A DNA stretch of 64,000 nt from Nitrospirales bacterium (GTDB taxonomy: Bacteria; Nitrospirota; Nitrospiria; Nitrospirales; UBA8639). This document shows positions 27,311 to 30,640 of this stretch, piece after piece. The position numbers were made by a program, and so were the translations under genes. The stretch spans positions 1 to 64,000 of the forward strand of contig BQIU01000013.1 in the NCBI GenBank assembly GCA_021603905.1, given 5' to 3'. Numbering within the stretch: position 1 is the first letter of the stretch; every line of letters begins with the position of its first letter. The notes below the pieces were generated by a model. The model was not told the origin of the DNA. It searched no databases and saw only the letters and a program-made list of their open reading frames with translations.

Positions 27311-27340
27311 TTGAAAACTGTACCAGCTAGACGGTATAGT
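27311..27340 (+). promoter_or_regulatory. promoter and palindromic operator of the TetR-SHC gene
   Basis: TTGAAA (27311-27316) and TATAGT (27335-27340) are 18 bp apart. An inverted repeat, ACTGTACC (27317-27324) and GGTATAGT (27333-27340), 7 of 8 matching with an 8-bp centre, fills the spacer and covers the -10. That is what an autorepressing TetR-type protein would bind (inference). The start codon at 27348 is only 7 bases past the -10, so the transcript would begin at or next to the ATG. Confidence 0.65.
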
Positions 27341-27347
27341 CGCGTTT

Positions 27348-29885
27348 ATGCCAACTTCAACTCGTCATTCGATACTTGAGACAGCTATTGATGTGTTAGT
27401 CAGGGACGGTGTCGGTTCGCTGACATTAGAACGCGTTGCCCAAGACGCAGGACTGAGCAAAGGAGGGCTGCTGTACCATTATGAAGGCAAAGAGCAGTTA
27501 CTCGAAGGACTCATCGAGCTACTCGTCAACGAATTCGATCGTGAGCAAATTGGTATGCCTTCTGTAAGTTCTACCTCGTCGCAGCAGTCCCATGCGTTTC
27601 TTTCGACCGATCTTCCGTTAAACGGAGTGGATGACATGCTGGTCGAAAGTCGATCGCTTCGTGGGCATGAGATTGCGGCTATTCTTATGGCGGCCTTTGC
27701 CATCAACCCGGAACTACTTGTGCCTATTCGTGAACGATATCGAAGTTGGCAAAGCCTTTTGCTTGCGGATGAAGCGGCTTCAACTCGTCCTCTTATTGCA
27801 CGACTGGCTTCAGAAGGACTTTGGTTTAGCGAAGCCTTAGGGTTGGCCCCGCCCACTCGTGAGCAACGTGTGGCACTGGCTCACGAGATTCAAGATCTTA
27901 CGCAAGAAGGAGATTCCATGAGAGAGATAGCCACTTTGATCGAACCCTCGCAGCCAGGAGACATAGCTGTCACATTGCCATCAGCCAATGCCGATATAGA
28001 AGAACTTCAACAACGGACACTCGAATCGACACAATTATCTGCACAGACATTGTTGGCTAAGCAAAATGTGCAGGGGTTTTGGCAAGGAGATTTAACGGCA
28101 GATACGACGTTGGAGTCCGACTATGTGCTGCTTTTGCTTTGGCTCTATCCGCCCCAGGCGGGAAAATGGCATGACGACATACAAGCAAAAATTGACAAAG
28201 CGATGCGTACCATTCTGGACCGTCAGCTTGCGGATGGAGGATGGAATATCTATTCGGAAGGTCCCGCTGAAGTGAATGCCACGACCCGAGCCTATGTCGC
28301 ATTGCGAGTGTGTGGTTACGATCCCGACCATCCAATCATGGAGCGTGCGCGACAGCGTATCCTGGCTCTTGGCGGACTTCAAGCAACGAATAGTTATACA
28401 AAAAACAATCTGAGTATGTTTGGTCTGTTTCCTAGAAAGTTTACGCCGAGCGTGCCACCGGAACTCGTGTTAATCCCTGGCAATGTGTTGTATGAAATTT
28501 CCTCCTGGAGTCGTGCCATCGTGGTTCCGCTTTCCATCATTCAGGCGTCCGGTGTGCAACGCCAGGTGCCCGGCAACTGGACCGTTGATGAACTGATGTT
28601 ACCGAATCGGAAATTGATGTTTCCGCGGAAAGATCCGTTTTCTATTATGTTTCATCAGGTGGATAGAGTGTTGAAATTGTGGGAGAAACGTGGATTTAAA
28701 GACATTCGGGCTAAAGCGATTCGTGAAGCCGAGAAATGGATGCTGGACCATATGCGGTTTACGGACGGTCTCGGGGCCATCTTTCCGGGAATGATGTATG
28801 CGCTGATGGCCATGGATGCACTGGGGTATGAGCGTGACCATCCAGACTTTATCGAAACGTTCAATCAACTTGAAGGGCTTATACTTGAGCGGAACGATAC
28901 ACTGCAGTTTCAGCCAAGCTTATCTCCGGTATGGGATACGGCCATTTCCATGTTTGCGTTGGGAGAACTTGGAGTTAGTGAATCGGAAGCCATGCGGCAT
29001 GCAGCGGATTGGTTGCTGAGTAAAGAAGTGCGGCGAAAGGGGGACTGGTCAGTCAAGCGTCCCAGCTTACAGCCTGGCGGATGGCCGTTTCAGTTCGCGA
29101 ATGAATTGTATCCGGATATTGACGATACCGCGATGGTCTTATTGGCGTTTGAGCATGCGAAAGCTTCAGACCCTGAACGCCAGGCTCGTGTCGAAGGGCG
29201 TGCGGTCAACTGGTTATTCGGCATGCAATCCTCTGATGGGGGTTGGGCCGCGTTTGATGTTGACAACAATTGGGAGCTGTTAAATAAGGTCCCGTTTGCC
29301 GATCATAATGCGATGCTGGATCCAAGCTGTCCGGACATTACAGGAAGAGTGGTCGAGGCTCTTTGTCGGCGTGGGTTTGATCATCAGCATCAAGCGATTG
29401 CGCGTGCCGTTCAATACTTGTTGGGGCATCAACAGGCCGATGGGAGTTGGTATGGACGTTGGGGTGTCAACTACACGTATGGGACCTTTCTTGCGGTTCG
29501 GGGTCTTCGTGCGAGCGGTTCCCCGACTGCAACTGCTGCCATTCAGCGTGCCGCCGCTTGGGTCCACTCCGTCCAAAATTCTGATGGAGGTTGGGGGGAA
29601 AGCTGTGCCAGTTATGAAAAGCATGCATTCGTGGAGGCCTCCAGCACACCTTCCCAAACCGCTTGGGCTCTGCTCGCGCTTCAGTCCGCGGGTGATCGAT
29701 CGTCACCTTCGGTTCTCCGCGGAGTCGAGTGGTTGCTCACAAGGCAAAATCAAGAAGGCGGATGGGATGAAGTACTCATGACAGGGACGGGGTTTCCTAA
29801 TGTTTTTTATTTGAAATACCATCTGTATTCGCACTACTTTCCTCTGCTAGCGCTTGGCACGTGGCGAGCCAGCGTCGCGACTTGA
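27348..29885 (+). CDS. TetR-type regulator fused in frame to squalene-hopene cyclase
   Basis: 845 residues. Residues 1-60 are a TetR helix-turn-helix (LTLERVAQDAGLSKGGLLYHYEGKEQLLEGLI); 61-188 fit the helical TetR ligand domain. Residues ~191-845 are a full-length squalene-hopene cyclase: the catalytic DIDDTA (590-595) carries the DXDD acid, QW repeats occur at QLADGGWN, QSSDGGWAAFD, QADGSWYGRWG, QNSDGGWGE and QNQEGGWDE, and the C-terminus has NVFYLKYHLYSHYFPLLAL. The cyclase turns squalene into hopene for membrane hopanoids. An ATG at 27918 (residue 191) with AAGGAGA just upstream could start a free 655-residue cyclase. So one gene may give both a fusion and a separate enzyme. No stop or frameshift separates the two halves. 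Confidence 0.92.
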   Translation: MPTSTRHSILETAIDVLVRDGVGSLTLERVAQDAGLSKGGLLYHYEGKEQLLEGLIELLVNEFDREQIGMPSVSSTSSQQSHAFLSTDLPLNGVDDMLVESRSLRGHEIAAILMAAFAINPELLVPIRERYRSWQSLLLADEAASTRPLIARLASEGLWFSEALGLAPPTREQRVALAHEIQDLTQEGDSMREIATLIEPSQPGDIAVTLPSANADIEELQQRTLESTQLSAQTLLAKQNVQGFWQGDLTADTTLESDYVLLLLWLYPPQAGKWHDDIQAKIDKAMRTILDRQLADGGWNIYSEGPAEVNATTRAYVALRVCGYDPDHPIMERARQRILALGGLQATNSYTKNNLSMFGLFPRKFTPSVPPELVLIPGNVLYEISSWSRAIVVPLSIIQASGVQRQVPGNWTVDELMLPNRKLMFPRKDPFSIMFHQVDRVLKLWEKRGFKDIRAKAIREAEKWMLDHMRFTDGLGAIFPGMMYALMAMDALGYERDHPDFIETFNQLEGLILERNDTLQFQPSLSPVWDTAISMFALGELGVSESEAMRHAADWLLSKEVRRKGDWSVKRPSLQPGGWPFQFANELYPDIDDTAMVLLAFEHAKASDPERQARVEGRAVNWLFGMQSSDGGWAAFDVDNNWELLNKVPFADHNAMLDPSCPDITGRVVEALCRRGFDHQHQAIARAVQYLLGHQQADGSWYGRWGVNYTYGTFLAVRGLRASGSPTATAAIQRAAAWVHSVQNSDGGWGESCASYEKHAFVEASSTPSQTAWALLALQSAGDRSSPSVLRGVEWLLTRQNQEGGWDEVLMTGTGFPNVFYLKYHLYSHYFPLLALGTWRASVAT
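27907..27920 (+). promoter_or_regulatory. internal ribosome binding site and start for the cyclase part
   Basis: AAGGAGA at 27907-27913 stands five bases before an in-frame ATG at 27918. The junction lies exactly where a TetR protein would end and a stand-alone cyclase would begin. Confidence 0.7.
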
Positions 29886-29962: not shown

Positions 29963-30640
29963 TTGGCGATTAAGCTTGAGCACGTTGTACCGTTTGGCCG
30001 TTCGTTAGGTGAATATCAGGCCATGTTTGACCTTACTCCGTGTGACTTGTCAAAAAGAATCCTCGGGGTCGGAGATGGGCCTTCCAGTTTCAATGCAGAA
30101 ATGACAGCATTAGGCCATTTTGTGTTGTCTATTGATCCGCTCTATCGATTCACAAGGCAGGAAATTAAGCATCAATTTGACGCTGTGGTTGATGGCATTA
30201 TCGCACAAGTCAGTTCTACTCCGGCCGATTGGGCGTGGACGTATCACAAGTCTTTTGAAGATTTGAAAATCAATCGAATGGCTGTGCTTCAAACATTTCT
30301 CGCTGACTACGTTCAGGGGAAAAATCAGAAGTGATATCAAATTGGAGAATTGCCATACGTATCAGAAGTGACTGATATGTCTTTTGAGCTTGCCTTATGT
30401 TCGCATTTTTTTAATACTCCGATCAACTTGATGTTAATTTCATGAATCCGCGTTGCTGGACATGCTCTATGTTGCCTCCGAGGTGAGAATATTTCCACTC
30501 ATGACATTACAGGGGCAACGCTCCGTTCATGTCGAATCGATAGTGCAGTTTTTACGAGATCAGGGTTACGAGGTTGGCATTCAGAAGGTTCCTTACGAAT
30601 TACAGCGGGGTGGAAATGAAATGTTATGGATACGAAGAGC
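29963..30640 (+). pseudogene. decayed SAM-dependent methyltransferase-like gene
   Basis: Residues 1-123 from TTG 29963 read as an intact N-terminus (VVPFGRSLGEYQAMFDL, KRILGVGDGPSSFNAEM, SIDPLYRFT), which I take as a SAM-binding fold from the GVGDGP loop. A TGA at 30332-30334 ends it, but the same frame continues with GELPYVSEVTD and FELALCSHF. Near the seven-T run at ~30410 the match shifts frame (YSDQLDVNF) and shifts again to HESALLDMLYVASEVRIFPL and KVPYELQRGGNEMLWIRR. One nonsense codon and two frameshifts thus break one ~225-residue protein. It follows the hopanoid cyclase by 77 bp; any link is unproven. Confidence 0.75.

Follow-up and report, generated by a model that had tools for sequence, protein, structure and literature searches.

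Within a 64,000-nucleotide stretch of a Nitrospirales genome (hereafter, the window), positions 27348-29885 form a single uninterrupted frame of 845 codons, the product of which is a complete TetR protein joined at its C-terminal end to a complete squalene-hopene cyclase (SHC). The features of this gene and of the region directly upstream are as follows:

27311..27316, + strand: −35-like hexamer TTGAAA, a putative promoter element
27319..27338, + strand: candidate operator TGTACCAGCTAGACGGTATA, symmetric at 14/20 positions
27335..27340, + strand: −10-like hexamer TATAGT, overlapping the candidate operator and 7 nt before the start codon
27348..29885, + strand: TetR-SHC fusion gene, 845 aa
27372..27506, + strand: TetR_N helix-turn-helix (HTH), residues 9-53 (Pfam E 5e-9; dN/dS median 0.057)
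27666..27902, + strand: TetR_C_28 domain, residues 107-185 (Pfam E 7e-18; dN/dS median 0.113)
27907..27912, + strand: internal Shine-Dalgarno sequence AAGGAG, holding the only invariant third base in 120 fourfold columns
27918..29885, + strand: internal start M191 and free-cyclase reading frame
28038..29867, + strand: SHC domains, residues 231-840 (Pfam, TIGR01507)
29115..29126, + strand: catalytic DXDD motif, here DIDD, residues 590-593

The flanking frames, named by eye, are MoaA/MoaC-like, AccD-like, Rieske-like and ATP-grasp-like, and judged in this way none adjoining the fusion is recognized as a hopanoid gene; the next downstream frame, 29963-30334, has no Pfam match.

The first half belongs to the TetR family by its Pfam scores, 36.2 bits for TetR_N (gathering threshold, 24) and 65.2 bits for TetR_C_28 (26.4). 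Modeled alone with AlphaFold (mean pLDDT 65.6), it shows an HTH of high confidence and a C-terminal part of low confidence, and a PDB comparison finds TetR-family regulators with low TM, three of them at E ≤ 0.001; AlphaFold block means fall to about 28-56 in the TetR C-terminal part and the junction. The model of the entire fusion has a mean pLDDT of 75, and its best PDB matches are the SHC structures 1sqc and 2sqc, with a TM of 0.86-0.87 of target.

Hopene is a sterol-like lipid, and its cyclase is a membrane enzyme. In the second half of the fusion, Pfam places SQHop_cyclase_N at residues 231-516 and SQHop_cyclase_C at residues 525-840, and the NCBIfam model for squalene-hopene cyclase, TIGR01507, scores 617.5 bits against a cut-off of 431.1. 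We checked 22 positions that we take to form the active site and find 18 of them, DXDD included, identical to those of A. acidocaldarius SHC. The four that differ (V375I, Y420F, F437H and H451R) are all found in other SHCs: F437H and H451R are common to all other SHC rows aligned, and Y420F is common to the Acidobacterial rows and absent from the canonical Nitrospirales rows. No sign of lost catalysis is found at these 22 positions; by these sequence measures, the SHC half is a predicted squalene-hopene cyclase.

This cyclase is not alone in its genome, as a separate canonical SHC, 44% identical, lies at G000:C132 (G and L numbers denote genomes and loci, respectively). One other genome, G030, has three SHC-like genes, the fusion plus two copies at 46% and 40% (G030:C70 and G030:C189), and two SQS_PSY genes are present in 8/8 genomes tested, with or without the fusion. 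Both shc and hpnH are reported in cultured marine Nitrospirales in the survey of PMC10579370, of which the main text does not contain the word TetR. A different long frame, at L195:1058-4450 (G007:C22), lies directly downstream of a P450 gene and codes for a squalene epoxidase-type FAD domain (PF08491) fused to a domain resembling oxidosqualene cyclase, which scores under the cut-off of TIGR03463. Similarly matching frames of about 1,130-1,190 aa occur in eight genomes of genus g4, the domains being those read from the G007 copy, and sterol synthesis by a fused epoxidase-cyclase is a possible reading of the G007 frame.

We find the same TetR-SHC frame in 18 genomes of two phyla, 16 from Nitrospirales and two from Bryobacterales (Acidobacteria). 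The TetR half, searched against 48 genomes of the window's family, returns 15 fusions, distributed as 3/5 genomes of the window's own genus, 12/20 of a second genus and 0/23 of the remainder. All 15 TetR matches above 200 bits in these 48 genomes lie inside a long fused frame, with three weaker TetR matches outside, and no split tetR/shc copy of the fusion is found among them; three of the 15 genes (G034, G028 and G066) are cut by contig ends. The full fusion protein, searched against 59 related genomes including its own, matches 11 frames from residue 1, the ten from other genomes being 75-96% identical to it. In a sample of 295 genomes of the phylum, the window's family is the only one in which fusions were seen. 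A scan of genome contigs yields 18 loci, comprising 14 fusions (12 Nitrospirales and two Bryobacterales, the latter ~60% identical to the window's fusion) and four unfused SHCs; one fusion, L099, differs from all 15 family copies and is the 16th from Nitrospirales. These 16 span at least two genera, and the copies of G018 and G020 lie in single-contig genomes. The search of the Acidobacterial class covered 399 genomes from a larger group, with at most two candidates scored in nearly every genome; as these are best matches only, more fusions may exist, and the count does not take in L112, L127 and L133, Acidobacterial frames in which SHC has a long extension on its upstream side.

The in-frame fusion that the initial annotation had proposed, together with a search for it elsewhere in Nitrospirota, is borne out by the 845-codon frame, by the Pfam and TIGR01507 matches and by recurrence, including in the two single-contig genomes. 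The window comes from a draft genome of which the contamination is put at 7.54%, and an artefact of assembly or sequencing is rejected as vanishingly improbable because the same frame recurs in 18 genomes of two phyla.

Both halves are, as judged from substitution rates, under purifying selection, and their connectors are loose. The NG86 dN/dS medians, from non-saturated pairs (56 to 92 of 105 usable, by region), are 0.057 for TetR_N, 0.113 for TetR_C and 0.051 for SHC, compared to 0.445 for the inter-domain linker and 0.323 for the junction, which makes the HTH the most conserved portion of the TetR half.

At the junction, an ATG at 27918-27920 is in frame (residue 191), and the AAGGAG ends five bases upstream of it. 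The unfused SHCs L104, L116, L120, L126 and L129 start with MRE or MRD, and L124 with MKE; the window's segment from M191 starts with MRE, and ATG 27918 corresponds to the start codon of these unfused relatives. The junction ATG is present in 13/16 Nitrospirales and 2/2 Acidobacterial fusions, and in the 13 it is preceded at 5 nt by AGGAG (12 cases) or AGGAA (one). Across these 13 fusions there are 120 columns of invariant fourfold-degenerate residues, and the third base is constant in just one of them, Gly188, the codon of which is the GGA of the internal Shine-Dalgarno sequence; with the 11 complete genes alone, 6/183 fourfold columns are invariant, Gly188 included. That the sole invariant column of 120 falls here argues that internal initiation is selected, and on this codon-level evidence the 13 fusions with an internal ribosome site keep it under selection.

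A subclade of three members, G030, G066 and L099, has Thr at the column of the junction ATG, the codon in G030 being ACA, and AGGAG is absent there. The TetR tree pairs G030 with G066 as its sister, and L099 is nearest to G066 (87%) and then G030 (82%). G066 and L099 do have an alternative in-frame ATG five codons upstream, that of L099 with AGGAG 12 nt before it; a short product in either is unlikely. With the internal site gone, the fused form is probably the main or sole form of the cyclase in this subclade. The earlier proposal of a retained internal ribosome site that gives rise to two products therefore holds as a selected site in 13 of the 16 Nitrospirales fusions and fails as a general rule, since the other three lack both the ATG and the Shine-Dalgarno sequence.

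Directly 5′ of the fusion start codon lies the candidate operator, a 20-bp inverted repeat. The pattern ACCnnCYRGACGGTA is exact in 22/22 genes, comprising 15 Nitrospirales fusions, two Acidobacterial fusions and five unfused tetR-shc pairs, and L099 carries it too. In 15/15 Nitrospirales fusions the pattern is flanked by TTGnnn and a TA-rich hexamer, which are 17-18 bp apart, such that a bound regulator would be expected to block a promoter there. The initial annotation's choice of 27311-27340 is supported to the extent that a candidate operator and putative promoter lie there, with a conserved pattern and −35- and −10-like hexamers. The symmetry of the repeat is 14/20 here, 10-12/20 in nine genomes of genus g9 and 14-18 in the others, and by itself is no proof, since 240 of the 63,980 20-mers in the window score 14 or more. 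A leaderless fusion mRNA is possible. The −10-like hexamer lies 6-8 nt upstream of the ATG in 12/15 Nitrospirales fusions and 21-29 nt upstream in three; the 1 nt that separates the two in both Acidobacterial fusions is at odds with a leaderless start. In the promoters of G018, G028 and G032, parts of the operator or of the −10 element recur as short tandem copies upstream of the start codon, and a 22-mer, TGTTCCACCCGGATGGYATAGT, recurs in G004, G018, G020 and G067.

When 11 genomes are searched at up to three mismatches, the best operator match is at the genome's own copy of the gene in 11/11, which suggests that the TetR half is an autoregulator dedicated to this gene; in the window's genome, the sole sites are the two strands of the fusion-gene site. 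The pattern occurs 60 times in these genomes, compared to 48 for a reversed control, with the excess seen in G733 (11 vs. 1), G020 (8 vs. 4) and G067 (5 vs. 1). A wider regulon is disfavored by the best matches, although these totals leave room for one, and there may be further targets beyond the own gene, most of all in G733.

Unfused kin of the TetR half share the operator-like motif. In 257 genomes of the order to which G335 belongs, a TetR match at E ≤ 1e-12 is found in 17, at loci that comprise two fusions, the tetR-shc pair of G733 and 14 others where the surrounding stretch contains no SHC; the motif, at up to two mismatches, is present at 17/17 of these and at 6/6 TetR loci from another Nitrospirales family. 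For unfused kin, 23/23 loci examined have it. Flanks were viewed at 12 kin loci, and Pfam, run on the neighbors at eight of them (L082, L177, L180-L184 and L187, with L083-L085 outside this set), identifies efflux components at 8/8: five have OEP and the remaining three HlyD, which in one case is accompanied by ACR_tran. No efflux frame is evident by eye in the flanks of L179. As these regulators lie beside efflux genes, the signal of the TetR half may be a lipophilic compound; the report on squalene or hopene supply suggested in the initial annotation is one conceivable role. The eight efflux-adjoining kin share a TACCGTCCGGACGGTA-type repeat, and their targets are easy to read.

The Acidobacterial class search returned 30 loci, of which one is the G335 fusion and five have tetR directly before shc. 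At L120 the tetR stop abuts the shc start in the same frame (TAG|ATG), a single in-frame TAG short of a fusion, and the other four junctions overlap, as TAATG in L124, TGATG in L126 and L129 and ATGA in L116. Two separate genes in relatives had been put forward as a point against the fusion; such genes are indeed present in some Acidobacteria, where they represent the ancestral gene pair and do not refute it.

In an SHC tree of 63 rows (L104 and L108 being one gene), the Nitrospirales fusions form a clade (100/100) nested among SHCs of Acidobacteria; the Acidobacterial fusions and the unfused L104 adjoin this clade, and the canonical Nitrospirales SHCs lie at a great distance from it. The tree as found requires two changes for the fusion, and a single clade of fusions is compatible with the data (p-AU 0.208). 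The TetR tree joins the Nitrospirales and Acidobacterial fusions (98/96) with L116 next (91/88), with the caution that long branches meet at that point. These trees would fit either a single fusion, after which L104 lost its tetR, or two fusions, and are most simply read as transfer into Nitrospirales from Acidobacteria.

Taken together, these comparisons favor, with a probability of roughly 0.6, a self-regulated (autorepressed) second hopene cyclase made both as a regulator-enzyme and as free enzyme. An efflux-lineage TetR regulator would have come to precede shc in a two-gene unit with abutting or overlapping ends, of the kind found in Acidobacteria today, and loss of a stop or of the frame difference would have fused the two; the unit or the fusion would then have reached Nitrospirales by horizontal transfer, as the trees support, with one fusion event or two in all. 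Presumably as a dimer, the TetR half would bind the inverted repeat lying across its own promoter and repress the gene, as operator conservation suggests, and a lipophilic ligand of TetR_C_28 would lift repression to allow hopene synthesis above what the canonical SHC supplies. In most species, selection on the internal site points to two products, a regulator-cyclase of about 94 kDa from 27348 and a free cyclase of about 73 kDa from 27918. The enzyme thus probably helps to control its own gene.

A plausible, if somewhat doubtful, alternative is that the fusion is incidental, the halves acting as the former separate proteins did and their link having no function of its own. Ancestral pairs one stop codon or frame away, a loose junction and linker, the retained internal start, and a cyclase in L104 that exists unfused are all as expected if so; this account does less well in explaining why all 16 Nitrospirales copies are fused with no split copy in the 48 family genomes, and why the fusion persists in the subclade that lacks the internal site.

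The cyclase half might instead be the sensor. A speculative and rather unlikely version is a membrane-gated transcription factor, in which the cyclase would quit the operator on engaging squalene or the membrane and the second start would set the ratio of sensor-enzyme to plain enzyme; if true, an enzyme would read the supply of a sterol-like lipid and write its state to its own promoter. We regard as unlikely a trigger enzyme of the PutA type, where binding of squalene or membrane would pull the protein off its operator and gene expression would track enzyme occupancy. In its favor, a DNA-binding domain is N-terminal to a membrane enzyme, as in trifunctional PutA (PMC5293562); the fusion is kept across long divergence with both halves constrained, and the one subclade that lost the internal start keeps the operator and HTH. 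Retention of a complete TetR_C_28 suggests the usual ligand route instead, and in 13/16 fusions the selected internal start would give an enzyme without the DNA-binding part.

Very improbable is a TetR half that has lost DNA binding and serves dimerization or membrane positioning, for despite the poor models of its C-terminal part and junction and the weak operator symmetry in nine g9 genomes, its HTH has a dN/dS of 0.057 and the operator pattern is exact in 22/22 genes of two phyla.

TetR-SHC is a new domain combination relative to the literature covered, and comparative sequence evidence lends strong support to a self-regulated hopene cyclase. Among the best matches in literature on TetR, SHC, hopanoids and fused enzymes, titles and abstracts hold no TetR-SHC fusion, most subscription papers lying outside this coverage, and nothing was found that pairs TetR with a terpene cyclase. 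The fusion gathers into a single gene an enzyme, a ligand domain and their candidate operator and promoter, and would offer a direct handle on bacterial hopanoid control. The extant series, from efflux-type regulator to tetR-shc pair to fusion with and then without an internal start, spans two phyla and shows how an enzyme can acquire its own switch.

Compared to the SHC of A. acidocaldarius (TIGR01507; 1sqc/2sqc), the fusion shares the whole domain, the DXDD motif and most active-site residues, and differs by its N-terminal TetR protein. With TetR efflux regulators (CgmR, 2yvh; MtrR; NalD) it shares the HTH and a TetR-type C-terminal domain, and the same inverted repeat adjoins the gene in unfused kin (L082-L087, L177-L190); in contrast to these regulators, its candidate target is a lipid cyclase and no pump, to which the regulator is covalently joined. 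The Acidobacterial pairs L116, L120, L124, L126 and L129 have the same TetR and SHC subfamilies and operator, yet encode two separate proteins. Trifunctional PutA, an autogenous repressor in which an RHH domain is fused to a membrane-associated flavoenzyme (PMC5293562), is the nearest functional analogue: the fusion, a putative switch, has an unrelated DNA-binding fold and enzyme and retains an internal start, but resembles PutA in that its DNA-binding domain precedes, on the N-terminal side, a metabolic enzyme associated with the membrane, and in that its own gene carries a candidate operator.
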